A stretch of DNA of 54,833 bases from an uncultured Pseudomonadota bacterium (lineage in GTDB: Bacteria > Pseudomonadota > Gammaproteobacteria > Steroidobacterales > Steroidobacteraceae). The DNA lies in assembly GCA_903884235.1 (NCBI GenBank), contig CAISEB010000051.1:1-54833 (forward strand). Reading direction: 5' to 3'. The translations under genes and the position numbers were made by a program. Every line of letters begins with the position of its first letter. Within the stretch, counting starts at the first letter, position 1. Below the pieces are notes generated by a model that saw only the letters and a list, made by a program, of their open reading frames with translations, did no database searches and had not been told where the DNA came from. Shown in pieces: positions 31,842-54,736 of the stretch.

Positions 31842-32594
31842 TCAGTCTTCCTTGGCCATCTGTGCGTCGAGCAGTTCGACGTCGAAGACCAGCGTTTCGT
31901 TCGGGCCGATGTCCGCCCCGACGCCACGCTCGCCATAGCCCATCTGCGGCGGGATGTAGAGCTTCCAGTGCGAGCCCACCGGCATCAGCTTCAACGCTTC
32001 CTTCCAGCCCGCGATCAGGCCCGACACCTTCAGGTTCGCCGGGTGCCCAGGCTCCGTACCGTCGAACTCCGTCCCGTTCAGCAGCATGCCGCGGTAGTTC
32101 ACCCGCACCACGTCCTCTTCCTTCGGCAGCGCACCCGTCCCGCTCTTCAGGATCTGGTACTGCACGCCACTCGCCAGGGACACCATCCCCGGCTTCTTCT
32201 TGTTCTCGGCGAAGAATTCCATCGCCTTCTTGCGGTTCTCCGCGATCGCACGACCGCGCGTCGCCGCCATCTTCTGCCTCAGCATCTGCTGGAAGCCCTG
32301 CAGCAGCCCCTGCATCTCCTTCTCGGGGATCGCCAGCCGATTGCCGTCCAGGCCGTCCTTCAGACCGCGCACCAGCGCGTCCAGGTTCACCTCGGCGCCA
32401 TCCGCCGTGCGCAGCGCACGACCCGTCTGCGCGCCCACCGAGTAGCTCACCCGGTCCTTCTCGGTCCACTTCGCCACCGGCACGTCCTTGGACGCCTCGG
32501 CAGCCCGGGCCGGGGATGCGGGAATCGCGGCGAGCATCGCGCCCGCCATGGCGACCACGAGCACCGCCCGCCGCAGCGCAGCGCCTCTCGTCAT
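31842..32594 (-). CDS. FKBP-type peptidyl-prolyl isomerase, FkpA/Mip-like (copy 1)
   Basis: This secreted PPIase of about 250 residues has a signal peptide, a Mip/FkpA N-terminal dimerisation region (SYSVGAQTGRAL and a helical KKAMEFFAENKKKPG linker), and a C-terminal FKBP domain with VSGLIAGWKEAL and GERGVGADIGPNETLVFDVEL. It should fold prolyl bonds of exported proteins, here plausibly the Pro-rich oxidase encoded upstream. Start uncertain: ATG at 32594 gives the most compact signal peptide; in-frame ATGs at 32615, 32621 and 32636 are alternatives, and none has a strong ribosome-binding site. The mature part is almost identical to the copy at 50804-51568. Confidence 0.88.
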   Translation of the reverse strand: MTRGAALRRAVLVVAMAGAMLAAIPASPARAAEASKDVPVAKWTEKDRVSYSVGAQTGRALRTADGAEVNLDALVRGLKDGLDGNRLAIPEKEMQGLLQGFQQMLRQKMAATRGRAIAENRKKAMEFFAENKKKPGMVSLASGVQYQILKSGTGALPKEEDVVRVNYRGMLLNGTEFDGTEPGHPANLKVSGLIAGWKEALKLMPVGSHWKLYIPPQMGYGERGVGADIGPNETLVFDVELLDAQMAKED

Positions 32595-32656
32595 CGCGTG
32601 GTTGATCTCGGTCATCGTCATGGTCGCTCTGCTCATTGGGGTTTCGGAGTGAGGAG

Positions 32657-32689
32657 CGCCGCGTGCCCGGGAATCCCGGACACGCGGCG
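32657..32689. repeat. Long inverted repeat between oxidase 1 and FKBP 1
   Basis: The arms CGCCGCGTG and CACGCGGCG (9 bp, extendable inward to about 15 bp with one mismatch) form a stable hairpin between the MCO1 stop and the FKBP start. It could slow transcription or stabilise the upstream mRNA end. No T-tract is present on either strand. Confidence 0.45.
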
Positions 32690-32751
32690 TCCATCCAATC
32701 AAACTTTCAGAAACATTCGATCTGTCGATTCACTCAAGCAGGGACAGTGGG

Positions 32752-32784
32752 CAAGCCGGGCGGGATCCCCACCCACCCGGCTTG
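32752..32784 (-). terminator. Hairpin just after the oxidase 1 stop
   Basis: Arms CAAGCCGGG and CCCGGCTTG (9 bp) enclose a 15-base loop with further GG/CC pairing. It lies 9 bases past the stop codon of the giant oxidase. Its core matches the hairpin after oxidase 2 (41615-41642), suggesting common origin. It lacks a T-tract, so it may be an mRNA 3' stabiliser or a partial terminator. Confidence 0.45.
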
Positions 32785-32793
32785 TCCGGAACA

Positions 32794-35700
32794 TCACTGC
32801 AGCGTGATGCTCGTCGTCCCGTAGAGGCCGACACCCGTGGACGTCGGGTCCGCGTTGAGCAGGCGTCCGGCGCTGGCCACGTTGTAGCCATACACGCGGT
32901 ACTGCACGGCGGTGCCCTTGAGTCCTGGCACCGGGTCCGTGGCCTGCGTGGCATTGGCCGCCGCGGTCGCCGCCAGGTGCCACGTGGCGCCGCCGTCGAT
33001 CGAGCGCTCGACCTTGAAGCCGAGCTCGTTCTTGGCGTTGCCATAGGTCGCCGGCGCACTGAACGGGGTCGGGTCGACCCAGGTCAGCTGCACCGTGCCG
33101 TCCGGCTGCTGCACCGCCACCACCGAGGTCGGCGCGTCCGGCCGCAGCGTCTGGTTGGTCACCGCGATCGCGCGCATGAAGTCGTTCTCTTCATGGCCGA
33201 GGATGTGGCAGTGCCAGACGTACTCGTTGTCGTACTCCTCCATCGAGTTGACGACCGTGGCCGGCTCGCCGATGCCGAGGGCACGCGAATCGACCGGCAG
33301 GCCGTTCACCGGAGTGCCGTTCAGGCCGACCACCGCGAACTGGGTGAAGCCCATGTTCACGCCGAGCGGCTGCGACGGATCCTGCGCACGGTAGCTGTGG
33401 TCGATACCGAACGGAACCTGCGGCATGGCGGCGTTCATGACGACGATGATGTCCTCGAGCGGATTCATCGTCACCGTCTCGCGCCAGCCGAGCTCGTTGT
33501 CCTCGACCGGCTTGACGGTGCCGTCCCAGCCCACGCGGTTCACGACCTGCACGTTGACGAGGTGGAAGTGCACGGGGTGCGTGTCCACGCCGTTGTGCGT
33601 GATCTTCCACATCTGCGACGTGTTGGCCTCGAGCTGCTCCGTGGCCGGGTCGATGTAGTTGAGCGGCAGGGTCGTCTGGACCGTCAGCGACTGGTTCGGC
33701 ATCTCGATGCCGAGGGTCGCGTTCATGCGGCCATAGAACGGCTCGAACAGCTCCTGGATCGCCGGGTTCATCAGGCGCCCGATCTTGATCGAATCAAGGG
33801 TCGGGCACGTCGTGACGCTCGCCGGGCACAGCGACGGCAGCGTCATCGGCACGGAGTTCGCCGGGGTCGGCACGCCACCATTGGGCAGCGCGGCCGGCGC
33901 CACGAACGCACGCGTCGTCGACGCGATCGCCATCGCGGTCGCACCCGTGCCACCACCGGCCACGCCCGCGACCGCGGTCGCCTGCGTGCCACCGGAGAAG
34001 GTCACTGCCGGGGCCGCCAGGTAGCCACTACCACCATTGGTGATCGTGACGCCCGTGACGACACCGTTCGTGACGGTGGCCACGCCGGTCGCCGTCGACA
34101 CGGTCGAGGTCGGCGCGCTGACGGCGGCGTTGACGACCGCGCCGTAGGCGAAGTTGCCCGTGGCGGTCGGCACGACGCTGGTCACGCTGCCATTGGTCAC
34201 GACGAGGTTCGCCGTCGCACCCGAGCCGAGGCCCGTCGGATCGATGAGCGTCAGCGTCGGTGCGCCGGTGTAGCCGGTGCCGCCGTCGAGGATCGTGTAC
34301 GAGCAGCAGATGCCCGAGAACGGCACGGCCTGGATGACGGCCGTGCGCGGTGCCGGGGGCGCCGCGAACGTCACCGTCGCGGAGCCGGCCGGGTACACGC
34401 CGCCACTGACGAGCGTGACGCCCGTGACCGAGCCCGCGCCCACCGTCGCCGTACCGGTCGCCGCCAGGTTGGCCGGCGGATCGATCGTCACGACCGGCGC
34501 GGCCGAGTAGCCCGAGCCGCCGCTGGTCAGCGCGATGCTGACCGAACCGCTGGCGCTGACCGTCGCCGTGGCCGTCGCGGCCGTCACCGTCGGGCAGGTC
34601 GCGCCGACGCAGGCCGAGTTGGCCGGCGGGGCGACGGTGACATTCGGGACGGTCGTGTAGCCGGAGCCCACGTTCGTGACCGACAGCGACGAGACGGCGC
34701 CACCCGAGATCAGGGTGACGGCCGGCACTTCGGTGTAGCCCGCGCCCGGATCGAGCAGGTCGATCGTCTGGACCTGGCCACCCGCGACGTTCGCCGTGGC
34801 GACGGCCGTGTGGCAGCCGACGCGGCCGCTCACCAGCGGATCGCAGCCCGGCGGGTCGATGCGGACGGTCGGCGCGGTCCAGTAGCCCGTGCCGGCACCC
34901 GCGGCCGGGTTGTTGCCGCCGCTCGCACCGCCGAGGCCGATGCCGCTCGCGGCGCCGGTCGCAGTGGTCTTGCCGAGCACGGCGATGCTGATCAGGTTCA
35001 GCGCGCCCGGATTGGTGACGAAGAACATCGGCTCGTTCTGCGAGGCGAGGTACATGTCACCGACCTGGTCGATGTAGTTCGAGCTGAAGCCGTGCGTCGA
35101 ATCGACCGCACCGATCACGTTGTAGGCGCTCTCGCCGACGATCGGCGGCGCCTGCGTGGCGGCGTAGATCCGCTGCATGAGGCCAGGCGTACCGACGTTC
35201 GCGCCGATGCTGCGACCCGTGCCGAGCGCCTGCGGGTTCCACGAGCCATCCGACATGATGGCCATCGGGTACTCGGCGGCCGGATCATGCAGGCCGTCCA
35301 CGTTGGCCTTCGTGCCGACGACCACCTGCAGGATCGTGCGGGTGTTCGGCGCGTAGCCGACCTCGGTGTTCGGCGCGCCACCCGTCGGGTAGTTGCCGGC
35401 GTTGCCGGGGTCGTTGCCCGTGAAGTAGTCGATGCGCCCGTCGAAGCCGGGGTTCGGCGCCGGGTTGTCGTTGTACAGGATCAGCGTGCGACCGGCCCAC
35501 GGCGCGAAGTCGACGACCACGTCGGCGCGCATCGCGGGTCCGATGTAGAGGCCATGGCACTTCGGGTAGCAGGCCTGCGTCACGTCATTGTCCTGCGAGA
35601 CGTTCAGCACGGTCACGCTGCGACGGTTGTAATCCATGTTGATCGGGATCGCCGGCTGCTCCACCCACATCGGGAGCAGGCCGCCCTCGTTGCCGATCTG

Positions 35701-38700
35701 GAACATCGACGGACCCATCTGGTCCGGGTTCGGCGCCCAGCGGCCGTCCACCGGCCACGGCGTGACCGCCGTGTTGCCCGAGAACGGGTTGCCCGGGTAG
35801 CTCGACGGCTGCGCACCGGTCTGCGGACCGGCCAGCACCTCGGTGTTCACCGCGCCGTCGGCGGCGCGCGCCTGCAGCGGATCGGCCTGGTAGAAGCCCA
35901 GGTTCACGAAGCGGTCGTTGTTCGAATTGAGGAACTCGAGGCGGTACGCGCGCGGCTCGACCGTGACGGTCGGGAACGCGACGCCGTTGACCGTCTCGGA
36001 GTCCTGGAACGCCTCGGGCGTCGTCGTCACGTCACCGTACTGGCCCGAGGGCAGCGAGTACATCGACGGGTAGACGATCGCGAACCACGGACCCCAGTCC
36101 CAGCGGCCCGCGGCACTGGCCGAGGCCAGCATCGCCGGGTTCTGGTTCGTCTCGTAGACGTGTGGGAACCACAGGTCGCCGTAGGTGCCCCAGTGGCCCT
36201 GATCCCAGCGTGCGTCCTCGAGCATGATGTCCTTCGGGACGAAGGTCTTGTCCTCGATGACGATCGGGATGATCTGCTGGGGGAGGTAGCCCTGGAGCTG
36301 GCCACCGGTGGTGGCGACGCCCGTCTCGGTGGGCAGCTGCGGCTCGACGCTCGGGTCGCGCAGCATGAACGGCGCGGCAAGGCCCTCGTACACGTTCAGC
36401 CGGGTGATGCCGGTCGTGTGGTCGTGGTACCACATCAGGCGCTCGGACTGGTTGTTCGTGTAGTAGAGCGTGCCCTCGCCGACGGCCGGCGGCGTGTAGC
36501 CGGCCGGACGCTTCGGCGCACCCGTGGGCGTGCCGTCGAGGGTGCCCGGGTCGTCACCGACCATGTCCGGGACCTGCTTGAAGCCCGGGCCGACCGGCAT
36601 CGCGATCAGGGCGTTGATCGCCCCGCCGGCACCCGTCGTGTCGCTGACCGTGACGGCCGGCGTGTCGGTGTAGCCGCCACCGGCGTCGACGATCGTGACA
36701 CCCGTCAGCTGGCCCGCGGTGACCTTGGCCGTCGCGACCGCCTGGCGGGCGTTCGCGGGTGGCGCCACCGTGACGACCGGCGGGGACGCCGGGGTGTAGC
36801 CCGCGCCCGGATTGCGGGGGTCGATCTTGATGCCACGCAGCGTACCGTCGGCACCGACGATGGCGCTGGCGAGCGCTGCGGCCGGCACGTACGGATCGGC
36901 CACCGTCACCGTCGGGGCGGAGGTGTAGCCCCAGCCCGAGTTGGTGATCGTGTAGCCCGACACCGCACCGGCGGCCACCGACGCCGTCGCCGTGGCCTGC
37001 TGGGCCGGGGGCGGCGCGTCGATCGTGACGGCCGGCGCGGCGAGGTAACCCTGGCCGGCGTTCGTCACGGTGTAGCCCGTCACAGCGCCGTTGGTCACGA
37101 CCGCCGTCGCCGTCGCGGCGACGCTCGGCGTCGAGGCCGGGATGCCGGTGACCGTCGGCGGCGAGACGTAGCCGCTGCCGGGCGTGAAGCTCGCGATGCT
37201 GAGGACGCCGTTCGCCACCGAGGCGGTGGCCGTGGCACGCGTGCTCGGGGTCGCGGCACCGACCGTCACGGCCGGGGCGGCCGTGTAGTTGCTGCCGGGG
37301 TTGGTCACGGTGAAGCCCGTGATCGAGCCGTTCGCGATGTTGGCCGTCGCCGTCGCCGGCACGCTCGCGGTCGGCGCATCGATCGTGATCGTCGGGGCGG
37401 CCGTGTAGTTGGTGCCGCCGTTGACCATCGAAATCGACGTGATCTTGCCGTTCGCGATGTTGGCCGTCGCCGTGGCCCGCGTGCTCGCCGTCCAGCCGCC
37501 GGTCAGCGTCACGGTCGGTGCCGACGTGTAGCCCGAACCGCCATTGATCTGGAAGCCGGTCAGCACGCCGTTCTGGACGATGGCCGTGGCCGTCGCCGGC
37601 GTCCCGGCACCGGCCGGCGCCGCGATGGTCGCGGCCGGGACGGTGGCGAGCGGATCGTAGCCCGTACCCGCGACGAAGCCGGTCGCGCTCACGCCCGTGA
37701 CGAGGCCGTTCGCGATCGTGACGTTCGCCGATGCACGCGTGCCCGCGGTCGGCGCGCCGATCGTGATCGTCGGCGCCGCGACGTAGCCAGTGCCGCCGGT
37801 GTTGACGGTGATGCCGGAGATGCGGCCGTTGGCGACGGAGGCCGTCGCGGTCGCCGCGACGCCGGTGCCGGTCGGCGCGGAGAACGTGATCGCCGGAGCC
37901 GAGGCATAGCCTGCGCCTGCATTGCGCAGCGCAACCGTGATGACGTTGCCGGTGAGCGTCGCGCGGGCCGAGGCCTGCGTGCCCGCCGTCGGCGCGGCGA
38001 TCGTGACGGTCGGCACGGTCGTGTAGACGCTGCCTGCACCGACGTTGATCGCGGTGATGACGCCATTCGCGACGGTTGCGGTCGCGGTCGGCGTCACGGC
38101 TGCCGGAGGCGCCGCGATCGTCAGGGTCGGCGCCTGGCTATACACGGTGCCGGCATTGCCGATCGTGATGGCCGTCACCTTGCCGCCCGCGACGGTCGCG
38201 GTGGCGGTCCAGGCGAGCCCGGCGCCGGTGCGCGTACCGCCGGTGACCGTGACGGTCGGAGCGGTCGCGTAGTTGGTACCGCCGTTGGCGATCGAGACGA
38301 CCCTGCCGGTCGTCACAGTCGCGGTCGCGCGGACCGACGCCGGCGGCGCCGACAGCGTGACGCGCGGCGCCGTCCAGTAGCCGAAGCCGGCGTTCGTGAG
38401 CGTCAGCGGGCTCGACACGACGCCATTGGCGCCGAGCGTGGCCGTGGCGGTCGCCTGCACCGTGGCGGGCGGCGCCGCGACGGTGACCGTCGGGGCGGCG
38501 GTGTAGCCGACGCCGCTGCTGGTGACGATGATCGCCGTCAGGGCACCCGTCGTCGCATTGACCGTCGCGGAACCGGCGGCCGGGACACCCGGGGGCGCCG
38601 ATACGGTGACGGTCGGCGCGGTCCAGTAGCCGTAGCCCACGTTGGTCAGCGTGACGCCGGTGAGCGCACCACCGCTGACCGTACCCGAGGCATTCGCCTG

Positions 38701-40749
38701 GACCGTCGCCGGCGGGGACGGGAAGGTCACGGCGGCCGTGGTCCCGGTGTACCCGGAGCCGCCGCCTGTGATCGTCAGGCCCGTGATGGCGCCCGACGCG
38801 GCATTGATGCCCGTCGCGTTCGCCGTCGCGGTGACGGCCGTGCCCGGGGGCGCGATCGTGACCGTCGGCGCGCTGAAGTAGCCGAAGTTGGCCGTATTCG
38901 ACAGGGTGATCCCGCTCACCGCGCCACCCGTCAGCACCGCGGTGGCGGTGGTCTGCGACGAGGCCGGCGGCGCAGACACGGTCACGGTCGGAGCCGTGAA
39001 GTAGCCGAAGTTCGTACCGTTGACGGCGATCGAGCTGACCGTCCTCGCGGCCGCGCCGGTGCCCAGCGTCGGCGTGCCGGTCGCCTGGACTGCGTTCGCC
39101 GGGGGCGCGAGCGTCACGGTCGGGGTCGTGAAGTAGCCGAAGTTGCCGGTGTTCGACAGCGCCACAGCACTGACGGACTGGCCGGCGAGCGTCGAGCTTG
39201 CCGTCGCGTTGACCGCGGCGGGCGGGGCCGACAGCGTGAGCGCGGGTGCGGCGCCGTAGTAGCCGTAGTTCGCCGACACCGACACGCCCGTGACGACGCC
39301 GTTCGCGACCGTGACGGTCGGGACCGCATCGGCATTGGGGGTCGGCGCGGCGATGTGCACGCCCGGCAGCGAGGCCGAGTTGTACAGCGAGCCACCGCCG
39401 CCCGCGGCCGGGGCCAGCGAGGCGACGGTCGTGTTCTGCACGGCCGTGCCGCCAGTGCGCAGCGTCGACGTGGCGCTCGCCGTCGCGGCGGTGCCCTGCG
39501 GTGCGCTGATCGTGACCACGGGCGCGACGGTGTACGAGGCACCACCGTTCGTGCCGGTCACCGCGGTGACCTTGTAGCCGCTCGCGGTCGCGGAGGCGGT
39601 CGCCTTCACGCCCGGGCGCAGCAGGGGGGCGGCCACGGTGACGACCGGGGGATTCGCGGCGGAGTAGAAGCCGCCGGCATTGACCACGTCGATCGCCTTC
39701 AGGCTGCTCGTCGTCGAATCGACGACCGCATGCGCGGTCGCGATGCTCTGCGGCGGCGCGATCGTCACGACCGGCGAGGCGGAATAGCCCGCGCCCGTCG
39801 CGGTGACGGCGATGTCGGTCAGGTACCCGTAGCGGGTGTCACCGACCGGGATGGTCCACTGGTGCGGGTTGCCGTCCGAGATCCACGGCGTCAGGCCGCC
39901 ATGCAGGTGGATGTCGATGCGGTTCTGCGGGAGCGCGCCACCGGCGAGGGTCGCGTCCACCGGCAGCGGCAGGTCGCCGTTCCGGGTGACGGTGCCCTGG
40001 CAGGGACCGATCTTCGGCTGCGTGCCGCTGCACGTCGCCGCGCCCGGAGGCAGCAGGTTCGAGTACTTGATGCGGGTCGCGTGGTCCTTGGTCGCGACGA
40101 TCATGGGCCCGAGGTAATGCGGCTGGTCGTAGCCGAACACCTGGTGCTGCACGCCAGCGGCGTCCGGCAGCGTGATCGGGGTGCCGTTCGGGTAGAACAG
40201 CGGGACGTGCTTAGAGCCCGTGGGCTGCGGCTGGCCCGGCTCCTCGATCTGCACGTAGCCGCGCAGCACGGAGGCCTTCGGGAGGTCGGAGTGCAGCTGC
40301 TCCTGATATTCGACCGCGGCGATGTGGTAGTAGTCCGCGAGGTCCGTCGGCCACACGCCGGGTACCGCCAGGGGGATGTACTTGCTGCCGTCGTCGACGG
40401 CGCCGGTCAGGCCCTGGTTGTTGTGGTACGCCATCGCGCCCGTGCCCGCGTTCGTCGTCGGCGCAAGGCCCTTGACGCTCGGCAGGATGTCGACGAACTT
40501 GCGCATCGGCGCACCGGTGTCGATCGGCAGTGCGTTGGCGCCGCCGACGAGATCCGGACGCGGGCCTAGGGGGCTGTTCGCGTAGAACGTCGGTTCAACG
40601 ACGTCCGGGGGACCCGCAGGGTTCGCGTTGCGGCTGTAGCCCGGGGCGAACCCCGGCCCGGCGACGGCTGACGGGATGATCCCCGCCAGGGCCACCACGC
40701 CGCTCGTCGCGAGTGCGAGCGCTCGTGTCAAAAAAGGCCTGAGTGTCAT
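32794..40749 (-). CDS. Giant multicopper oxidase with inserted beta-repeat arrays (MCO1, MofA-like)
   Basis: This 2651-residue secreted protein has a signal peptide (1-30, cleavage after AVA). All four multicopper oxidase motifs are present but very far apart: HLHG at 281-284, WYHDH with H1442/H1444, HPVHFH with H2391/H2394/H2396, and HCHILGHEENDFM with H2513, C2514, H2515 and H2519. Common oxidases have the first two motifs about 40 residues apart; here about 1,070 residues of 'GSGYxxAPTVTIxAPP' repeats (26 copies, about 312-1383) intervene. A second array (about 1950-2270, 8 copies) precedes the last cupredoxin domain. A fibronectin-III-like domain ends the protein. The axial position of the type 1 site is Phe (F2524). 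It should oxidise an external substrate, possibly Mn(II) or Fe(II), and reduce oxygen. The domain set suggests MofA/OmpB-type metal oxidases. A TAGGAG site supports the start. Confidence 0.88.
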   Translation of the reverse strand: MTLRPFLTRALALATSGVVALAGIIPSAVAGPGFAPGYSRNANPAGPPDVVEPTFYANSPLGPRPDLVGGANALPIDTGAPMRKFVDILPSVKGLAPTTNAGTGAMAYHNNQGLTGAVDDGSKYIPLAVPGVWPTDLADYYHIAAVEYQEQLHSDLPKASVLRGYVQIEEPGQPQPTGSKHVPLFYPNGTPITLPDAAGVQHQVFGYDQPHYLGPMIVATKDHATRIKYSNLLPPGAATCSGTQPKIGPCQGTVTRNGDLPLPVDATLAGGALPQNRIDIHLHGGLTPWISDGNPHQWTIPVGDTRYGYLTDIAVTATGAGYSASPVVTIAPPQSIATAHAVVDSTTSSLKAIDVVNAGGFYSAANPPVVTVAAPLLRPGVKATASATASGYKVTAVTGTNGGASYTVAPVVTISAPQGTAATASATSTLRTGGTAVQNTTVASLAPAAGGGGSLYNSASLPGVHIAAPTPNADAVPTVTVANGVVTGVSVSANYGYYGAAPALTLSAPPAAVNATASSTLAGQSVSAVALSNTGNFGYFTTPTVTLAPPANAVQATGTPTLGTGAAARTVSSIAVNGTNFGYFTAPTVTVSAPPASSQTTATAVLTGGAVSGITLSNTANFGYFSAPTVTIAPPGTAVTATANATGINAASGAITGLTITGGGSGYTGTTAAVTFPSPPATVQANASGTVSGGALTGVTLTNVGYGYWTAPTVTVSAPPGVPAAGSATVNATTGALTAIIVTSSGVGYTAAPTVTVAAPPATVQATATATLGANGVVSSPLTLTNAGFGYWTAPRVTLSAPPASVRATATVTTGRVVSIANGGTNYATAPTVTVTGGTRTGAGLAWTATATVAGGKVTAITIGNAGTVYSQAPTLTIAAPPAAVTPTATATVANGVITAINVGAGSVYTTVPTVTIAAPTAGTQASARATLTGNVITVALRNAGAGYASAPAITFSAPTGTGVAATATASVANGRISGITVNTGGTGYVAAPTITIGAPTAGTRASANVTIANGLVTGVSATGFVAGTGYDPLATVPAATIAAPAGAGTPATATAIVQNGVLTGFQINGGSGYTSAPTVTLTGGWTASTRATATANIANGKITSISMVNGGTNYTAAPTITIDAPTASVPATATANIANGSITGFTVTNPGSNYTAAPAVTVGAATPSTRATATASVANGVLSIASFTPGSGYVSPPTVTGIPASTPSVAATATAVVTNGAVTGYTVTNAGQGYLAAPAVTIDAPPPAQQATATASVAAGAVSGYTITNSGWGYTSAPTVTVADPYVPAAALASAIVGADGTLRGIKIDPRNPGAGYTPASPPVVTVAPPANARQAVATAKVTAGQLTGVTIVDAGGGYTDTPAVTVSDTTGAGGAINALIAMPVGPGFKQVPDMVGDDPGTLDGTPTGAPKRPAGYTPPAVGEGTLYYTNNQSERLMWYHDHTTGITRLNVYEGLAAPFMLRDPSVEPQLPTETGVATTGGQLQGYLPQQIIPIVIEDKTFVPKDIMLEDARWDQGHWGTYGDLWFPHVYETNQNPAMLASASAAGRWDWGPWFAIVYPSMYSLPSGQYGDVTTTPEAFQDSETVNGVAFPTVTVEPRAYRLEFLNSNNDRFVNLGFYQADPLQARAADGAVNTEVLAGPQTGAQPSSYPGNPFSGNTAVTPWPVDGRWAPNPDQMGPSMFQIGNEGGLLPMWVEQPAIPINMDYNRRSVTVLNVSQDNDVTQACYPKCHGLYIGPAMRADVVVDFAPWAGRTLILYNDNPAPNPGFDGRIDYFTGNDPGNAGNYPTGGAPNTEVGYAPNTRTILQVVVGTKANVDGLHDPAAEYPMAIMSDGSWNPQALGTGRSIGANVGTPGLMQRIYAATQAPPIVGESAYNVIGAVDSTHGFSSNYIDQVGDMYLASQNEPMFFVTNPGALNLISIAVLGKTTATGAASGIGLGGASGGNNPAAGAGTGYWTAPTVRIDPPGCDPLVSGRVGCHTAVATANVAGGQVQTIDLLDPGAGYTEVPAVTLISGGAVSSLSVTNVGSGYTTVPNVTVAPPANSACVGATCPTVTAATATATVSASGSVSIALTSGGSGYSAAPVVTIDPPANLAATGTATVGAGSVTGVTLVSGGVYPAGSATVTFAAPPAPRTAVIQAVPFSGICCSYTILDGGTGYTGAPTLTLIDPTGLGSGATANLVVTNGSVTSVVPTATGNFAYGAVVNAAVSAPTSTVSTATGVATVTNGVVTGVTITNGGSGYLAAPAVTFSGGTQATAVAGVAGGGTGATAMAIASTTRAFVAPAALPNGGVPTPANSVPMTLPSLCPASVTTCPTLDSIKIGRLMNPAIQELFEPFYGRMNATLGIEMPNQSLTVQTTLPLNYIDPATEQLEANTSQMWKITHNGVDTHPVHFHLVNVQVVNRVGWDGTVKPVEDNELGWRETVTMNPLEDIIVVMNAAMPQVPFGIDHSYRAQDPSQPLGVNMGFTQFAVVGLNGTPVNGLPVDSRALGIGEPATVVNSMEEYDNEYVWHCHILGHEENDFMRAIAVTNQTLRPDAPTSVVAVQQPDGTVQLTWVDPTPFSAPATYGNAKNELGFKVERSIDGGATWHLAATAAANATQATDPVPGLKGTAVQYRVYGYNVASAGRLLNADPTSTGVGLYGTTSITLQ
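33930..34900 (-). repeat. MCO1 repeat array 2 (about 8 units)
   Basis: In-frame degenerate repeats encode residues about 1950-2270. Each unit carries a 'GSGYxxAPxVT' turn and a following 'ATATAxV' strand pair. A cysteine pair (PFSGICCSYTI) interrupts unit 5 and is conserved in the same place in the second oxidase. Total length (about 320 residues) is also nearly the same in both proteins. Confidence 0.8.
36601..39818 (-). repeat. MCO1 repeat array 1 (about 26 units)
   Basis: About 3.2 kb of degenerate tandem coding repeats, period about 35-45 codons, encode residues 312-1383. The consensus is N-x-G-x-G-Y-x-x-A-P-T-V-T-[IV]-x-A-P-P followed by an Ala/Thr-rich strand and 'NGxVTGxT'. It begins 28 residues after the HLHG copper motif and ends 58 residues before HDH, so it sits inside the catalytic oxidase fold. 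Similar glycine-tyrosine turns occur in phage tail-fibre and bacterial adhesin repeats. Confidence 0.85.
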
Positions 40750-40914
40750 GTCCGACTCCTACGGATGAACGCCAAGAGAACTTCGAACCCACGCGGAGCA
40801 CCCCTACGGGCGCTCCACACCGAATGTTCGTTATTGCAATTTCTGCGCGCGGATTTCACCACTACTTCGGTCGCACTTTGGAGCCCGCTGGGGCACTTTT
40901 GGGCGATCGACCTA

Positions 40915-40939
40915 CCCCAATCATGGGGTTATTTCCCCA
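40915..40939. promoter_or_regulatory. Three alternating complementary arms upstream of MCO1
   Basis: CCCCA (40915-40919), TGGGG (40924-40928) and CCCCA (40935-40939) follow one another, so the central arm can pair with either neighbour but not both. This lies in the AT-rich leader about 170-190 bases before the MCO1 start. It could be an operator or a small attenuator-like switch. The arms are only 5 bp, so chance is a real alternative. Confidence 0.25.
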
Positions 40940-41182
40940 TTGCTTTTAGATATCTATCGTGCAGTCAATACTTATGTTAACCGTGGATACGCCCGCCTCC
41001 TGCGCGCCTGCGCACCTGCGCCAGGTTCGCGGCCTGACCCTCAGTCAATTCTGTTTTGATTGTTTTTACGTAAAGTCCCGGCTGCCGAGCTGGGCTCGCG
41101 TCCCGCGACGCGCGCGGCACGGCGGTGCGGGCAGGGACCGCGCGGCGGCGTGACCTCCGATCGCCGGATCGCCAACGAAAAA

Positions 41183-41207
41183 CGCCCCGCGTGCAACACG
41201 CGGGGCG
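41183..41207 (-). terminator. Intrinsic terminator for the PsiF2 transcript
   Basis: A perfect 11-bp stem (CGCCCCGCGTG / CACGCGGGGCG) with a 3-base loop is followed on the minus strand by TTTTT (A-run at 41178-41182 on the plus strand). It is the clearest intrinsic terminator in the window and ends the minus-strand transcript carrying PsiF copy 2, and probably MCO2, before MCO1 begins. Confidence 0.88.
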
Positions 41208-41290
41208 CCGTGAGCGGCCCGGTCGGGGCCGTCAGCAATGGCCGTGACCCATGCCCTCGAGGGCTGGGGATCGCGGCCCAGGGGGCTCGT

Positions 41291-41515
41291 TCAGTGGCCT
41301 CGCATGCAGTTCTGGACTGCCTGCTCCTTGGCCGCGCCCTTCAGGTCCTTCGCCTTCTTCTGGCACGCCGCCATCTGCGTGCGTGCCGACATGCGGCTGG
41401 TCTGCTGCATCGACTGCGGCGTGGCCTGTGCCGGCGCATTCGAGGGCGGCTTCGTGCCCGCCACCGCGATCGCCGACACGAGGAGTGCCGCGATCACCAG
41501 GGTGTATTTCGTCAT
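41291..41515 (-). CDS. PsiF-like small secreted protein (copy 2)
   Basis: This 74-residue protein has a signal peptide (MTKYTLVIAALLVSAIAVAG) and a PsiF-type repeat with the same pattern as copy 1: RTQMAACQKKAKDLKG, then VQNCM. The two are related in the repeat but differ in the linker, which here is Pro/Gln-rich. A GAGG site precedes the ATG by about 9 bases. It lies 137 bases behind MCO2. The repeated pairing with a giant oxidase suggests a linked envelope function, unknown at present. Confidence 0.75.
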   Translation of the reverse strand: MTKYTLVIAALLVSAIAVAGTKPPSNAPAQATPQSMQQTSRMSARTQMAACQKKAKDLKGAAKEQAVQNCMRGH

Positions 41516-41614
41516 GTTCGCGATCCTCGTCAATGCCCGCATCGCGGGCCAGGTAAGTAAGGACGGGCTCAACTCGTCGCTCGCCATGGGGGCTTTCGCC
41601 GCCGGGTGAGAGCG

Positions 41615-41642
41615 GTGCCGGGCGGGAGGTCCCACCCGGCAC
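41615..41642 (-). terminator. Hairpin just after the oxidase 2 stop
   Basis: Arms GTGCCGGG and CCCGGCAC (8 bp) with an inner GGGA/TCCC pairing lie 10 bases after the MCO2 stop. The core (GCCGGGTGGG...CCCGCCCGGC on the minus strand) is shared with the hairpin after MCO1. No T-tract; the downstream PsiF gene is probably still transcribed through it. Confidence 0.45.
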
Positions 41643-41652
41643 CGTACCCGGA

Positions 41653-44600
41653 TCACTTCAGCGTGATCGTCGTCGTGGCCATGGCACCGACACCGGCGTT
41701 CGTCCCGCCGATGACCTTGCCGAGCGTCGGCGCGTTGTAGCCGTAGACCCGATAGTTGACGAGCGTAGCGCTCGGAACCGGGCTCAGCAGCAGATCCGAC
41801 GCCGTCGTGCCGTTGGCCGGGGCGACTGCCACCACCTGCCAGTTGGTGCTGGTCGGCGTGCACGTCCCGACGCAGCGCTCGAGCCTGAAGCCGAGCTCGT
41901 TCTTCGCATTGCCGAGCGTCGTCGCCGCGGCAGCGACCGGGGTCGGATCGACCCAGCTCGCCACCACCGGCGCACCGGCCGAGGCCTGCGTCAGCACGAA
42001 CCCGGTCGGCGCATCCGGCGCCGTGGTCTGCGACGTCGCCACGAGGGCGCGCATGAAGTCGTTCTCTTCATGGCCGAGGATGTGGCAGTGCCACACGTAC
42101 TCGTTGTCGTAGTCCTCGATCGAGTTGACGACCGGCGTCGACGCCGTGTCACCGACGCCCGCGATGTTGCCCGCCGGGTAGTAGCCGGCCGGGATCGGCA
42201 GGCCGTTGGCCGCGAGACCGTTGATGCCGGCGGTATAGAACTGGGTGAAGCCCATGTTCACACCGAGCGGCTGCGACGGATCCTGCGGACGGATGCTGCG
42301 GTCGATGCCGAACGGCACCTTCGGCATGTCGGCGCGCATGACGACCATGATGTCCTCGAGCGGGTTCATCTTGACCGTTTCCTTCCAGCCGAGCTCGTTG
42401 TCCTCGGGCGGCTTGACCGTGCCGTCCCAGCCGACGCGGTTGATGACCTGCACATTGACGAGATGGAAGTGCACGGGGTGCGCATCCACGCCGTTGTGCG
42501 TGATCTTCCACATCTGCACCGTGTTCGGCTCCAGCTGCTCAGTTGCACCGTCGATGTAGTTCAGCGGCAGCGTCGTCTGCACCTTCAGCGACTGGTTCGG
42601 CATCTCGATGCCGAGGGTCGCGTTCATGCGGCCGTAGAACGGCTCGAACAACTCCTGGATCGCCGGGTTCATCAGCCGGCCCACCACCGCGTTCGACGTA
42701 TTGGTGCAGGAGGTCTGCGCCGCGTTGCAACCCATCAGCGAGGCGAGGCCCGGCGGCAGCGCCATCGGGACCGCACTCGCCGAGAGCGGCACGCCACTGT
42801 TCGGCATGGCCGCAGGCACCACGAACGCCGTCGTGCGACTGGTCAGGGCGACCGCGGTCGCACCGGTGCCGCCACCGAGCAGCGACGCCACGGCCGTCGC
42901 CTGCGCGCCACCCGTGAAGGTGACCGTCGGCGCACCCGCGAAGTAGTTGCTGCCCGGGGTCGTGACGCTGACGCTGGCGACGAAGGTACCGGTCGGATCC
43001 ATGACCGCAGTGCCCTTCGCCTGGACCGCGACGGTCGTCGGCGCCGGGACCGCGCTCAGCACCGCCTGCTTGTAGGTCAGCGGGCCAGTGGTCAGCGGGA
43101 TCACGCTCGTGATCGAACCGTTCGACACGATCGTCTGCGCGGTCGCACCGACCAGCGCCGGGGTCACCGACGGATCCGTGACCGTGAGGGTCGAGCCCGC
43201 GGTGTAGCCGAGCCCACCATCCGTGACGGTGTAGATGCAGCAGATGCCGCTGAACGGCGTGGCCGTGATCTTCGCCTGGCGAATCGCCGGGGGCGCGGAG
43301 AACGTCACGGTCGGGACAGTCGGGGAGACGTACGTGCCACCCGATCCGACGAGCACCTGGCTGACGGTGTCGGCGGCCAGGACCGCACTACCCGTGGCCG
43401 CGACGGCCGACGGGGGTGCAATCGAGACCGTCGGCTGGCCCGTGTAGCCGGTGCCGGCGGCGGTCAGGGTCACGCCCGTGACCTTGCCCGCAGTCAGGAC
43501 CGCGGTCGCCGCGGCGCCGCTGCCATTGCCACCCGAGATCGTCACGGCCGGGGCCGTCGTGTAGCCGGCACCGCCGCTGGTCAAGCCGATCGAGCCAAGC
43601 TTGTACGCGGCCACGATGTTGACCGAGGGCGCGTAGGTGTAGCCGAGGCCCGGGTTGGTCAGCGTGATCGCCGTCACTTCGCCGCCGGTAACGGCAGCCG
43701 TCGCCGTGGCCTGCGCGCAGCCCGTGGTGCCGAGCGTGCAGCTCGTGGGCGCCGAGATCACGACCGCGGGAGGCGTCGTGTAGCCGGTGCCGGAGCCCGC
43801 ATTCGCGTTGCTGCCCGTGCTGCCCCCGCCGAGGCCAACGCCACTCGGGGCGCCGGTCGCGGTCGTCTGGCCAGTCACCGCGATGCCGGTGATCGTCAGC
43901 GGACCGGGGTTGGTCACGAAGAACATCGGCTCGTTCTGCGACGCGAGGAACATGTCCCCGTACTGGTCGGTATACCCCGAGCTGAACGCACCGGTCGTAT
44001 CGACGGCGCCGAGCACGTTGTACGCGCTCTCGCCGACGATCGGAGCCGCCTGCGTCGCGACATAGACGCGCTGCAGCGCACCGGGTGTTCCGACCGACTT
44101 GCCGACCTGGCGGCCCGCGCCGAGCACGGTCGGGTCAAACGTCGCGGCGACCGGCGCCGGGAGCACGACCACCTGCATCAGCGTGCGGGTGTTCGGGCCG
44201 TAGCCGGCTTCCGTGTTCGGCGCACCGCCGGTGGCGTAGTTGACGGCGTTGCCCGGATCGTTGCCGGTGAAGTAGTCGATACGACCGTCATAGCCGGGGT
44301 TCGGCGCCGGCGCATCGTTGTACAGGATCAGCGTGCGACCCGCGTACGGCGCGAAGTCGACCACGACGTCCGCACGCTCGGCACCGCCGAGGTACAGGCC
44401 GTGGCACTTCGGATAGCAGGGCTGCGTCACGTCGTTGTCCTGCGAGACGTTGAGCACGGTCACGCTGCGACGGTTGTAGTCGTAGCTGACCGGGATCGCG
44501 TCCTGCTGGACCCAGGTGGGCAGCATGCCGGCTTCGTTGCCGATCTGGATCATCGGCGGACCCATCTCGCTCGGCAGGGGCGCCCAGCGACCGTCGGTCG

Positions 44601-47600
44601 GCCACGGCGTCAGGGCGTTGTTCGCCGCCACGTCGTGGAACACGTTGCCCGCGTAGTTCGTCGGCTGATCGCCGAAGTTCGGGCCGGCGAGCACTTCGGT
44701 GTTGATCGCGCCGTCACCGGCACGCACCTGCAGCGGATCGGCCGTGTAGAAGCCGACGTTGAAGAACCGGTCGTTCGAGCCGTTCAGGAACAGGAACCGG
44801 TAGGCCTTCGGCTGGACCGTCAGCGTCGGGTAGGCGACGCCATTGACGACCGCCGTATCCTGGAACGCCTCGGGCGTCGTCGTCACGTCGCCGTACTGGC
44901 CCGTGGGCAGCGCGTACATCGACGGATAGACGATCGCGAACCACGGACCCCAGTCCCAACGACCGGCCTGGCTCGCCGAACCCCAGAACGACGGGTTCTG
45001 GTTCGTCTCATAGACGTGCGGGAACCAGAAGTCGCCGGGCTGGCCCCAGTGCCGCGTATCCCAGTTCGCGTCCTCGAGCATGATGTCGGCCGGGACGAAA
45101 GTCTTGTCCTGCAGCACGAGCGGGATGATTTCCTGCGGCAGACCGGCCGCCGCGAGCGGCGCCTCGGTCGCCGGATCGAGGATCAGGTACGGCGCGGCCT
45201 CGCCCATGTAGGCGTTCAGGCGCGTCGTGCCCGAGGTGTGGTCGTGGTACCACATCAGGCGCTCGGACTGCTGGTTCGTGTAGTACAGCGTGCCCTCGCC
45301 GACGATCGGCGCCGTGTATCCAGCGGGACCGGTGGCGTTGCCGACCATGTCGGGCACCTGGCGGAAGCTGGCTCCCACCGGGCTCTCGATCAGCGCCGCG
45401 GCGGTCGCACCGCTGCCGCCGCCACCGGAGATCGTCACGTTCGGAGTCGCGCTGTAGCCACCGCCCCGGTTCGTGATGGTCACGCCGGTCACGCCGCCGC
45501 CGGCGATGGCCGCCGTCGCGGTCGCCTGCACGGCATTCGCCGGCCAGGCCACGGTGACCGCAGGCGGCGCAAAGTAGCCGTTGCCCGCATTGGTGATCGT
45601 GAAGCCGCCGATCGAACCGTCAGCCGCGACATTCGCGACGGCCGTCGCCTGGACCGGAGCCGGGGGCGCCGCGACCGTCACGGTCGGGGACGTCTGGTAA
45701 CCCCAGCCGGCGCCGGTGATCGTGTAGCCGTTCACGACCTGCGTCGTCGCATTGATCGATGCGGTCACCGTCGCCGCCGTCGCAGCGGGCGGTGCGGAGA
45801 GCGTGACCGCCGGTGCGGCGAGGTAGCCCACACCCGCGTTGGTGAGCGTCAGGCCCGACACCGCGCCAGTCGCCGCGTTGAGGGTGGCCGTGCCGGTCGC
45901 GGTGACGCTCGCCGTCGGCGCGCTCAGCGTGATGGTCGGCGTGGCCGCGTAGCCAGCACCGGCGTTCGTGACCGTGAAGCCGGTCACCACGCCATTCGCG
46001 ACCGTCGCCGTTGCCGTCGCCTGGGTGATGCCACCGGTCGGTGTCGAGACGGTGACCGTCGGCGGCACGGCAGGGTTGTAGCCGCTGCCTGCGGTCGTGA
46101 TCGTGTAGCTCGTGACCGCACCGGCCGCGATGTTCGCGGTCGCGACTGCGCGGACGCCCGCGGTCGCGGTGGCGATGGCGACGGCCGGAACCGTCGTCGG
46201 GTCATAGCCCGTGCCCGCATTCGTCAGCGTGATCGCCGTGATCTTGCCGTTGGCGACTGTGGCGGTTGCGGTGGCGCGCGTGCCCCCGGTCGCGTTCGCG
46301 ACCGTCAGCGTCGGCGCCGTCGAATACACGCCCGTGCCGACGACCGTGATGCCGGTGAGCTTGCCTGCGGCGACCGTGGCGGTCGCGGTCCAGGCGGTAC
46401 CGCTGACGCGCGTGCCGCCGGCCACCGTGATGAGCGGGGCCGTGAAGTAGCCCCAGCCCGCGTTGGTGATCGTGACGGCCTTGGCGGTCGACACCGTCGC
46501 CGTGGCGCGCGTCGTGGTTGGCGTTGCGATCGTGACCGACGGTGCCGTCCAGTAGCCGAAGTTGGCTGCATTGACGGCGATGGCGGTCAGGGCGCCCGTT
46601 GCCGCGTTCACGGACGGCGTGCCGACCGCATTCAGCGCCGCGGGCGGCGCCGGGAAGGTGACGGTCGGCGCGGTCGTGTACCCGGTCGTGCCGACGTTGA
46701 CCGCGAGTGCGGTGATCGCGCCCGTCGTGGCGCTAACGGTCGGGGTCGCCGTCGCGGCGACACCGCTGCCGGTCGGCGCGCTGATCGTCACGGTCGGCGC
46801 GACCCAGTAGCCGTAGCCGGCCGTGCCGACGGCGATCGAACCGAGCGTCGTGCCGGTCCGCGTCGCCGTGGCCGTCGCCTGGACGGCGGCGGGCGGGGCG
46901 GCGACGGTGACGGTCGGGGCGGTCGAATAGATGCTTCCGCCAAGGCCGAGGGTCAGCGAGGCGACCGCGCTCTTCTGCTGCGCGGTGCCGGTGGCGACCA
47001 GCGTGGCCGTCGCGGTGGCCGTGACGCTGGCAGGCGGGGCCGACACGGTCACGACCGGGGCGACGTAGTAGCCGGTGCCGGCCGTCAGGGCCGTGATGGC
47101 GCTGACCTTATGCGCGGCCACCGTCGATGAGGCCGTCGCCGCGGTGCCGCCCGTCGCGGTGGGCGCGCCGAGCGTGACCGCGGGATGAGTGCCGGCGACG
47201 TAGCCGGAACCCGCGTTGGCCACGTTGATCGAGCCGACGCCGAAGTTGGCGTTCAGCACCGCGGTGCCCGCGGCCACGGCCTGCGGCGGATCGACGGTCA
47301 CCGTCGGCACCCCGGCGTAGCCGGATCCGACCGCGGTCACCGCCATGTCGCTGACATCGCCGTAGCGCGTGTCACCGACCGGGATCGTCCACTGGTGCGG
47401 CGTGCCATCCGAGATCCAGGGCGACAGGCCGCCGTGCAGGTGGATTTCCGCGCGGTTCTGCGGCAGCGCGCCGCCGGCGAGCGTCGGGTCGACCGGAATC
47501 GGCAGGTCACCCATGCGCTGGCCGGTCGTCTCGTTGAAGGCGCCCGGGGGCAGCAGGTTCGACCACTTGATGCGCGTCGCCACGTTGCGGTGCGCGATGA

Positions 47601-48201
47601 TCGTGGGGCCGAGGTAGTGGGGCTTGTCGTAGCCGTACACGTTCTGCAGCGTGCCCGCTGCATCACGCAGCTGGATCGGCGTGCCGTTCGGGTAGAAGAG
47701 CTGGACGTGCTTGGAACCCTTCGCGGGTGCGGGTTGCACGCCCGGCTCCTCGATCTGCACGTAGCCACGCACCGTCGTCGCCTTCGGCAGGTCGGAGTGC
47801 ATCTGCTCCTGGTACTCGACGATCGCGAGGTGGTAGTAGTCCGCGAGGTCACCGGGCCACACATCGGGCACGGCGAGCGGGATGTACTTGGTGTCGCCGT
47901 TCGGCATCACGCCGGTGCCGGCGTTGGTCGACGGCGCGAGCCCGGGGATGCCGGGCAGGATGTCGACGAATTTCCGCAGCGCCGTGCCCGTATCGATCCC
48001 CGGGCCTGCCGGCGACACGAGATCAGGACGAACGCCGAGCGGACTGCTTGCGTAGTAGGTCGGAGCCATCACGGGTTGCCCCGTGTTGCTCGTTGCCGGC
48101 GTGATGCCGGGACCGGCCAGCGCGACCGGTACGAAACCGGTGAGCGCTACCGTCACGCTGGTCAGAACTGCGACCAGCTTCCTGTAGAACTGCGTGTTCA
48201 T
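41653..48201 (-). CDS. Giant multicopper oxidase with inserted beta-repeat arrays (MCO2, MofA-like)
   Basis: This 2182-residue paralogue of MCO1 has the same layout: signal peptide (1-29, after ALA), HLHG at 254-257, about 650 residues of repeats (286-938, 16 units), WYHDH with H986/H988, a middle cupredoxin domain, a second array (about 1468-1785), HPVHFH (H1908, H1911, H1913) and HCHILGHEENDFM (H2038, C2039, H2040, H2044, axial F2049). A C-terminal fibronectin-III-like domain follows. The non-repeat parts are closely similar to MCO1; the size difference is almost all in array 1. The start is MNTQFYRK, preceded by a GGGG-containing site; codons upstream in frame do not look coding. It should oxidise an extracellular substrate with oxygen. 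Fibrous surface display by the repeats is possible. Confidence 0.88.
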   Translation of the reverse strand: MNTQFYRKLVAVLTSVTVALTGFVPVALAGPGITPATSNTGQPVMAPTYYASSPLGVRPDLVSPAGPGIDTGTALRKFVDILPGIPGLAPSTNAGTGVMPNGDTKYIPLAVPDVWPGDLADYYHLAIVEYQEQMHSDLPKATTVRGYVQIEEPGVQPAPAKGSKHVQLFYPNGTPIQLRDAAGTLQNVYGYDKPHYLGPTIIAHRNVATRIKWSNLLPPGAFNETTGQRMGDLPIPVDPTLAGGALPQNRAEIHLHGGLSPWISDGTPHQWTIPVGDTRYGDVSDMAVTAVGSGYAGVPTVTVDPPQAVAAGTAVLNANFGVGSINVANAGSGYVAGTHPAVTLGAPTATGGTAATASSTVAAHKVSAITALTAGTGYYVAPVVTVSAPPASVTATATATLVATGTAQQKSAVASLTLGLGGSIYSTAPTVTVAAPPAAVQATATATRTGTTLGSIAVGTAGYGYWVAPTVTISAPTGSGVAATATPTVSATTGAITALAVNVGTTGYTTAPTVTFPAPPAALNAVGTPSVNAATGALTAIAVNAANFGYWTAPSVTIATPTTTRATATVSTAKAVTITNAGWGYFTAPLITVAGGTRVSGTAWTATATVAAGKLTGITVVGTGVYSTAPTLTVANATGGTRATATATVANGKITAITLTNAGTGYDPTTVPAVAIATATAGVRAVATANIAAGAVTSYTITTAGSGYNPAVPPTVTVSTPTGGITQATATATVANGVVTGFTVTNAGAGYAATPTITLSAPTASVTATGTATLNAATGAVSGLTLTNAGVGYLAAPAVTLSAPPAATAATVTASINATTQVVNGYTITGAGWGYQTSPTVTVAAPPAPVQATAVANVAADGSIGGFTITNAGNGYFAPPAVTVAWPANAVQATATAAIAGGGVTGVTITNRGGGYSATPNVTISGGGGSGATAAALIESPVGASFRQVPDMVGNATGPAGYTAPIVGEGTLYYTNQQSERLMWYHDHTSGTTRLNAYMGEAAPYLILDPATEAPLAAAGLPQEIIPLVLQDKTFVPADIMLEDANWDTRHWGQPGDFWFPHVYETNQNPSFWGSASQAGRWDWGPWFAIVYPSMYALPTGQYGDVTTTPEAFQDTAVVNGVAYPTLTVQPKAYRFLFLNGSNDRFFNVGFYTADPLQVRAGDGAINTEVLAGPNFGDQPTNYAGNVFHDVAANNALTPWPTDGRWAPLPSEMGPPMIQIGNEAGMLPTWVQQDAIPVSYDYNRRSVTVLNVSQDNDVTQPCYPKCHGLYLGGAERADVVVDFAPYAGRTLILYNDAPAPNPGYDGRIDYFTGNDPGNAVNYATGGAPNTEAGYGPNTRTLMQVVVLPAPVAATFDPTVLGAGRQVGKSVGTPGALQRVYVATQAAPIVGESAYNVLGAVDTTGAFSSGYTDQYGDMFLASQNEPMFFVTNPGPLTITGIAVTGQTTATGAPSGVGLGGGSTGSNANAGSGTGYTTPPAVVISAPTSCTLGTTGCAQATATAAVTGGEVTAITLTNPGLGYTYAPSVNIVAAYKLGSIGLTSGGAGYTTAPAVTISGGNGSGAAATAVLTAGKVTGVTLTAAGTGYTGQPTVSIAPPSAVAATGSAVLAADTVSQVLVGSGGTYVSPTVPTVTFSAPPAIRQAKITATPFSGICCIYTVTDGGLGYTAGSTLTVTDPSVTPALVGATAQTIVSNGSITSVIPLTTGPLTYKQAVLSAVPAPTTVAVQAKGTAVMDPTGTFVASVSVTTPGSNYFAGAPTVTFTGGAQATAVASLLGGGTGATAVALTSRTTAFVVPAAMPNSGVPLSASAVPMALPPGLASLMGCNAAQTSCTNTSNAVVGRLMNPAIQELFEPFYGRMNATLGIEMPNQSLKVQTTLPLNYIDGATEQLEPNTVQMWKITHNGVDAHPVHFHLVNVQVINRVGWDGTVKPPEDNELGWKETVKMNPLEDIMVVMRADMPKVPFGIDRSIRPQDPSQPLGVNMGFTQFYTAGINGLAANGLPIPAGYYPAGNIAGVGDTASTPVVNSIEDYDNEYVWHCHILGHEENDFMRALVATSQTTAPDAPTGFVLTQASAGAPVVASWVDPTPVAAAATTLGNAKNELGFRLERCVGTCTPTSTNWQVVAVAPANGTTASDLLLSPVPSATLVNYRVYGYNAPTLGKVIGGTNAGVGAMATTTITLK
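42850..43800 (-). repeat. MCO2 repeat array 2 (about 7-8 units)
   Basis: In-frame repeats encode residues about 1468-1785, the counterpart of MCO1 array 2 and nearly equal in length. Units read like GSGTGYTTPPAVVISAPT and SGGAGYTTAPAVTISGG. The PFSGICCIYTV cysteine pair is kept. Confidence 0.8.
45388..47346 (-). repeat. MCO2 repeat array 1 (about 16 units)
   Basis: About 2.0 kb of degenerate tandem coding repeats encode residues 286-938, inserted at the same place as in MCO1 between HLHG and HDH. The unit is the same (NAGxGYxxAPxVTxSAPP, then an Ala/Thr strand). Ten fewer units than MCO1 point to expansion or contraction by recombination. Confidence 0.85.
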
Positions 48202-54659: not shown

Positions 54660-54736
54660 TGGCGCGCCCGGAAGGATTCGAACCTCCGACCCCCTGGTTC
54701 GTAGCCAGGTACTCTATCCAGCTGAGCTACGGGCGC
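54660..54736 (-). tRNA. tRNA-Arg (anticodon ACG)
   Basis: A 77-nt cloverleaf on the minus strand has acceptor stem GCGCCCG/CGGGCGC, D-arm GCTC...GAGT, anticodon stem CCTGG/CCAGG with loop CTACGAA (anticodon ACG), and T-arm GGAGG-TTCGAAT-CCTTC, with discriminator G and an encoded CCA. ACG (read as ICG after deamination) decodes CGU, CGC and CGA. Its 3' half is duplicated at 53711-53755. Confidence 0.95.

Follow-up and report, generated by a model that had tools for sequence, protein, structure and literature searches.

How can a multicopper oxidase hold more than a thousand residues between two of its copper-ligand motifs, and what would such an insert do? This question is raised by two genes, MCO1 and MCO2, in the window (the whole stretch of 54,833 nucleotides that was analysed). 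The genes and their copper motifs lie at the following positions.

32794..40749, minus strand: MCO1, putative MofA/OmpB-type multicopper oxidase, 2651 residues (open reading frame, motifs, Cu-oxidase_2 at 2.8e-9, tree)
39898..39909, minus strand: HLHG copper motif of MCO1
36418..36426, minus strand: HDH copper motif of MCO1
33562..33579, minus strand: HPVHFH copper motif of MCO1
33193..33213, minus strand: HCHxxxH copper motif of MCO1
41653..48201, minus strand: MCO2, putative MofA/OmpB-type multicopper oxidase, 2182 residues (open reading frame, motifs, sequence matches in the structure database, tree)
47431..47442, minus strand: HLHG copper motif of MCO2
45238..45246, minus strand: HDH copper motif of MCO2
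42463..42480, minus strand: HPVHFH copper motif of MCO2
42070..42090, minus strand: HCHxxxH copper motif of MCO2

First, a motif search of both frames found HLHGG, YHDH, HPVHFH and HCHILGHE once each, in this order, in MCO1 and in MCO2, as the first-pass annotation had claimed. For MCO2 a start at an ATG farther upstream (48363) is possible. A Sec-type signal peptide is seen by eye at the N-terminus of both proteins. Above the Pfam cut-off only the last cupredoxin domain (Cu-oxidase_2) is found, the HDH region being a weak match; among proteins of solved structure, CotA and bilirubin oxidases come closest in sequence. Among relatives, the HLHG-type and HDH motifs are aligned in 58 of 58 rows of one alignment (A3, from which 4 of 60 sequences, the fragments L045, L049, L066 and L069, were left out), and in another alignment of 46 rows (A4, also used for the tree, with 11 of 55 fragments left out, including the unit-bearing L059 and L060) the other ligand residues do not vary. 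Stretches of MCO2 are 53% and 52% identical to L016, a homologue from Ferriphaselus R-1, which by its organism, homology and neighbours would be the OmpB/MofA homologue named in passages of PMC5566968. Copper motifs, core homology to L016 and mof-type neighbours together place MCO1 and MCO2 among the MofA/OmpB-type multicopper oxidases. Long open frames also run on the plus strand opposite the oxidase genes (32782-40569, 2595 residues; 42070-47130, 1686 residues); they are probably composition effects, since third-position GC is 0.93 and 0.91 in the oxidase genes.

Of the neighbours just mentioned, two are FKBP genes that flank the oxidase pair and the third is mofC-like; all lie on the same strand.

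31842..32702, minus strand: mofB-like FKBP peptidyl-prolyl isomerase, copy A (FKBP_C 2.2e-25, FKBP_N 3.6e-22; homologue at L016, 54%)
48987..50807, minus strand: mofC-like gene, probable c-type cytochrome (CVACH motif; 41.7% identity over 618 residues to the neighbour of L016)
50804..51568, minus strand: mofB-like FKBP peptidyl-prolyl isomerase, copy B (FKBP_C 2.2e-25, FKBP_N 2.3e-22; homologue at L016, 55%)

The GTG start of the mofC-like gene overlaps the TGA stop of FKBP copy B (GTGA). Pfam gave no family for the mofC-like protein (48990-50735), so that its assignment as a cytochrome rests on the CVACH motif and on homologues. Passages of PMC5566968 describe the mofABC operon and report it from Ferriphaselus R-1, and passages of PMC8218464 describe a similar operon of Rubrivivax A210; mofB- and mofC-like neighbours were also found beside L016. 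Over 68 sources (L007-L073 and the window itself), FKBP genes neighbour the oxidase in 32, mofC-like genes in 38 and both in 24, many loci ending at contig ends. Elsewhere in the window are a D-alanyl-D-alanine carboxypeptidase gene (51925-52806, plus strand, Peptidase_S11 3e-52), a tRNA gene (54663-54736, minus strand) and two short overlapping frames (53955-54523, minus strand) that resemble, by eye, a ParE/RelE-type toxin and its partner.

The oxidases are interrupted by two arrays each.

36610..39795, minus strand: MCO1 array 1, 26 units of about 40 residues, inside domain 1 between HLHG and HDH (unit profile, PHROGs)
33922..34893, minus strand: MCO1 array 2, about 8 units (one weak), between domains 2 and 3 (unit profile)
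45379..47328, minus strand: MCO2 array 1, 16 units, inside domain 1 between HLHG and HDH (unit profile; PHROGs with reversed and shuffled controls)
42835..43791, minus strand: MCO2 array 2, about 8 units (two weak), between domains 2 and 3 (unit profile)

From HLHGG to YHDH the chain runs from residue 281 to 1441 in MCO1 (1160 residues) and from 254 to 985 in MCO2 (731 residues), because 26 and 16 forty-residue units are inserted. The first-pass annotation had given about 1,160 and 730 residues, 26 or 16 units, and a second array before the last cupredoxin domain; the measured distances, the counts by a 40-position unit profile (the last of the 26 units being partial) and the eight or so units found at the second site all agree with it. 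The count for array 2 is softer because some of its units score below 5 bits and are termed weak (one of eight in MCO1, two of eight in MCO2, three of eight in the relative L010 described below). The unit has the consensus GxGYxxAPTVTxxAPTAxxxATATAxVAxGxVTGxTxTNx, and Ala, Thr, Gly and Val are abundant in array 1. Units within one protein are only distantly alike (median identity about 35-36%). No match to the unit was found in Pfam up to E 10, and sequence and unit-profile searches of the PDB gave as their best match one coat protein at E 0.15.

How unusual is this arrangement? A collection of one genome per species (84,980 species), scanned with two peptide patterns, yielded 64 loci, and in 60 of them both motifs could be read in one frame. 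The spacing from HLHG to HDH is 62-85 residues in 59 of these 60. The lone exception is L010, with a spacing of 1162 and 26+8 units, in genome G010 of another species of the window's genus. Thus the homology search for the same insert that had been proposed finds it in one congeneric species and in none of the 59 others. L010 spans 16.6 kb and shows neither an FKBP nor a mofC-like gene, but its contig opens only shortly ahead of the oxidase gene. Searches by taxon added 50 loci, of which 33 had both motifs readable by a looser pattern (some are the same gene); the spacing is 39-99 in 32 of them and 330 in one, L108, a weak match (E 8.5e-4) of 672 residues without units. The same-genus relatives L076 and L077 have a spacing of 68. 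Among the frames above 2000 residues listed for 15 genus, 200 family, 296 order and 369 class genomes (overlapping sets), only MCO1, MCO2 and the L010 gene appear. A tblastn search of plasmids gave 33 records, all under 60% identity, and the 15 matches listed fall only within MCO2 residues 963-1309. As far as found, the array-1 form occurs in two genomes only (scan together with genus, family, order and class searches) and would be confined to the window's genus.

Two background statements of the first-pass annotation need adjustment. A baseline spacing of about 40 residues does hold in part, as 39 is common in more distant oxidases, but the baseline of this family itself is 62-85. Other large metal oxidases had been called far shorter, and not all are: MofA/OmpB relatives with frames of 2616-3099 residues occur (L030, L058, L065, L066), long because of tails after the last copper motif. 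Among the best matches in open-licence PMC titles and abstract openings, no report of repeats between the copper motifs of an oxidase was found, which is weak evidence of absence, and the phrases giant or large multicopper oxidase occur in none of the best open-licence matches. Enzymes of this kind are already known, and the novelty, within the reach of these searches, lies in the length and site of the insert.

The unit itself is more widely shared than its position. It lies in a motif-bearing oxidase frame in 14 of the 64 scan loci, L010 included (E <= 1e-3). With domain borders judged from the motifs, units stand at the domain 2-3 junction in nine loci besides L010 (L011, L012, L020, L032, L057, L059, L060, L061 and L068), inside domain 2 in seven (L046, L048, L053, L057, L059, L060 and L068), in the tail of L032 and before domain 1 in L070. 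In none of the 14 unit-bearing loci but L010 do they stand between HLHG and HDH. Since 13 other relatives bear the unit elsewhere, it is the site and length of the array that are new. A FastTree analysis of 46 cores over 698 columns (41 scan loci, L010, two array-free paralogues, MCO1 and MCO2) joined MCO1 with L010 (0.954), then MCO2 (1.0), then L011 (0.997), with L012 nearby (next node 0.756); the unit-bearing L046, which has no HDH motif, and L068, which starts too near its frame start, are absent from alignments and tree. In L011 (4 units) and L012 (2 units) the units are confined to the domain 2-3 site. Most simply read, the array between domains 2 and 3 is the older one, and the domain-1 array was added later, in the window's genus, from the same kind of unit. 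At the insert site L011 reads HQWTVPVGDTGAHYKKGQSFQNVPDM where MCO2 reads HQWTIPVGDTRYG, then the array with short linkers, then FRQVPDM. Array 1 takes the place of a short variable loop in an otherwise normal oxidase domain.

The same genome encodes further members of the family. Two array-free MofA-like paralogues with fn3 matches lie on contigs C46 (L007:7990-12267, 1425 residues, spacing 62) and C22 (L008:4939-10752, 1937 residues, spacing 68), and neither has a unit above 5 bits. By eye, the C46 paralogue has a short, separate Gly/Thr-rich insert just before HLHG; PHROGs gave no family for it, and a phage-type origin is not claimed. The only other units in the genome (E <= 0.001) are in a 3782-residue multidomain protein on contig C28 (L144:5124-16469), with a Cu-oxidase domain, GxGY units at several places and DUF11 and TIG matches, which adjoins two ordinary multicopper oxidases of 639 and 556 residues. 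Two of its units are in the first cupredoxin region, between stretches that align to neighbour residues 39-109 (E 5e-5) and from 163 (E 1e-9). Their place in domain 1 is roughly that of array 1, and this region may be a favoured place of insertion.

What, then, are the arrays for? On balance, MCO1 and MCO2 are probably secreted copper oxidases with an intact core, in which the arrays serve as an inert spacer or tether that holds the enzyme outside the cell, the domain 2-3 array having come first. The chain would be exported through its Sec-type signal peptide and would fold, perhaps aided by the FKBP proteins, into the usual three-cupredoxin core, while two arrays of small beta-rich units loop out of domain 1 and of the domain 2-3 junction. 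Nearly uncharged, the arrays would enlarge the enzyme and hold it in an extracellular matrix, sheath or crust. The copper core would oxidise Mn(II), Fe(II) or another reductant and pass the electrons to O2; for OmpB and MofA, oxidation of Mn(II) or Fe(II) is stated in a passage of PMC5566968 as yet to be verified. The short array between domains 2 and 3 would be the older one, and the domain-1 array would have been added from the same kind of unit in an ancestor of the array-bearing species.

The most serious alternative, though we consider it unlikely, is that the arrays have no function at all: a module tolerated in loops may multiply in large secreted proteins and be kept because it is harmless. 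That units sit at different places in different relatives is in its favour, and so is the lower count in array 1 of MCO2, ten units short of MCO1 and L010. The comparison of MCO1 with L010 bears on it. Array 1 has 1105 and 1107 residues in the slices compared, and both proteins have 26+8 units. For 19 of the 34 units of MCO1 the best match in L010 is at the same index, where about one is expected (binomial tail 1e-20, a figure that ignores dependence between units), and the other 15 match at a different index. Units of MCO2 and L010 pair as 1-1, 3-3, 7-9 to 12-14 and 14-16 to 24-26, with MCO2 unit 2 best matching unit 16; from these matches of outer and inner units, MCO2 differs by loss or gain of inner units. 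MCO1 and L010 are 55% identical over array 1 and 56% over array 2, against 67-82% in the other parts. The corresponding dN/dS values, rough because dS is above 1, are 0.35, 0.32 and 0.13-0.22, and pN/pS is 0.54, 0.51 and 0.23-0.37. The arrays thus evolve faster than the core, as expected of neutral arrays, yet under constraint. Against neutrality are the pN/pS of about 0.5 rather than 1, the frame kept open over more than 1000 codons, and the equal count, mostly in matching order, in two species whose dS exceeds 1.

In the paralogue pair MCO1-MCO2, constraint is weaker (dN/dS 0.49 and 0.65 in the arrays, 0.33-0.80 elsewhere). Here dS is lower (0.3-0.8) than between MCO1 and L010 (1.0-1.6), yet the protein tree joins MCO1 with L010. 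Third-position GC is 0.73 in L010 against 0.91-0.93 in MCO1 and MCO2, and late duplication, gene conversion or a shift in GC are candidates to explain the conflict. Whichever the order of duplication, the array shared by MCO1 and L010 predates the split of the two species.

The relation of the unit to phage proteins suggests a bolder idea. PHROGs matches of MCO1 are led by phrog_701 (1e-85) and include virion structural, head-closure, tail fibre and baseplate wedge families; the isolated MCO2 array matches at 2.7e-55, and its reversed and shuffled versions match no family. A scan of viral contigs with two units gave at least 600 stretches; a relative is encoded by 395 of them, and 80 loci were retained. 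A viral frame fits the unit profile (E < 1e-5) in 75 of the 80 loci and has at least three units in 49, with a median unit spacing of 41 residues. A tblastn search of the MCO2 array against the phages collection, with the low-complexity filter on, found no match; because of the filter this is not taken as absence, but it does count against the phage link and has to be weighed with the PHROGs and viral-scan results. The BFVD fold search with the array-bearing model gave 61 matches at E <= 10 and none at E <= 1e-3, the first being a viral copper oxidase at 2.5e-3, a match given no weight here. By profile match the unit appears to be of phage-virion type, and transfer may have gone in either direction. 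The first-pass annotation had overlooked this link, as it had the mof-type cluster and the other positions that the unit takes in relatives. It is conceivable, if doubtful, that units of the phage-particle type were grafted into a catalytic domain and multiplied into a fibre-like enzyme that carries the copper site, and that neighbouring arrays pack into an extracellular enzyme fabric.

Domain 1 may instead be broken by the insert, so that MCO1 and MCO2 are inactive remnants or structural proteins and the C46 and C22 paralogues do the chemistry. The insertion between two ligand motifs and the presence of these two array-free paralogues would be in line with this. Structures were modelled for MCO2 residues 30-1225 (58-row alignment) and 983-2182 (46 rows). 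In the first model (mean pLDDT 55.7), domain 1 is mostly at 76-95 before the insert, with two blocks near 50, and at 75-91 after it, with one block at 58. Array 1 itself is modelled with low confidence (block means 24-69) and with many short strands in its first half. Foldseek places CotA first for this model, and its oxidase matches, among 50 matches listed, span 178-213 columns only (best E 2.5e-4), which again could suit a broken domain; for this reason it is from the two flanks of the insert that domain 1 is judged to close. The second model (mean pLDDT 67.6) matches CotA over 1090 columns spanning array 2 (E 1.1e-12), with a TM-score by target of 0.54 and an rmsd of 17.4 A, so that the domain placement of CotA is not reproduced. 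The core is thus predicted to be CotA-like. With four motifs intact in MCO1, MCO2 and L010, core pN/pS at 0.23-0.32 between MCO1 and L010, and the part after the insert well modelled, a broken domain 1 is improbable. The claim that arrays emerge from the loops of a normal oxidase gains support from the short variable loop at the site of array 1, from domain 1 modelled on both sides and from the CotA match across array 2 (rmsd 17 A), and projecting stalks are a plausible conjecture.

An active role of the arrays in binding metal, or in nucleating mineral and so steering the growth of Mn or Fe oxides, is less probable still. In its favour, passages of PMC5566968 call MofA a putative Mn oxidase and describe OmpB as required for Fe(III) oxide reduction, and PMC11412304 counts mofA with the most expressed genes of iron mats. 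In Leptothrix ochracea, however, the role of MofA, which is implicated in Mn oxidation, is stated as unclear in that paper. However, in MCO1, MCO2 and L010 array 1 has 0.6-1.1% Asp+Glu against 6.7-7.5% in the rest of the protein, 0.2-0.4% His against 1.4-1.8%, and no Cys, and none of Asp, Glu, His or Cys is among the conserved positions of a 28-unit alignment. This composition weakens the earlier suggestion of mineral nucleation, and because of it the inert tether fits better than a mineral-nucleating surface.

Finally, although the window makes up one complete contig of a draft assembly that consists of 59, mis-joined repeats have next to no probability as the origin of the arrays, since the units are divergent and an independent assembly has the same layout, which also argues against chance; from the spacing survey and the same 26+8 units in L010, the array is real and old.

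If the enzymes are active as the inert-tether reading supposes, a first cupredoxin domain tolerates an insert of more than 1,000 residues between two copper-ligand motifs. The locus then offers a natural test of how MofA/OmpB enzymes stay outside the cell, and it points out a loop with room for such cargo. A unit that is frequent in the proteins of phage particles would prove reusable in large enzymes that bacteria place outside the cell. With four large paralogues in one genome, two with arrays and two without, the test would be direct.

Among known systems, MofA/OmpB (mofABC of Leptothrix, OmpB of Geobacter) is the closest. It shares with MCO1 and MCO2 the copper motifs and a three-domain core with long insertions, and with the window the FKBP and cytochrome-like neighbours; it differs in the 26 or 16 units between HLHG and HDH, absent from 59 of the 60 measurable relatives. 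For a tether there is a precedent in OmpB, whose fibronectin domain is linked to attachment in a passage of PMC5566968. CotA laccase and bilirubin oxidase are nearest by sequence among solved structures, CotA also by the predicted fold of the second half of MCO2, but their chains of about 490-553 residues in the entries matched, against 2651 and 2182, have no space for such arrays. The phage families phrog_701, 19630, 460, 5342, 2885 and 708 (virion structural, baseplate and tail-fibre) have the unit profile in common with the MCO arrays; they are annotated as virion parts, however, and no frame in the 80 viral loci has both HLHGG and HCHxxxH, the two motifs that MCO1 and MCO2 combine with the unit.
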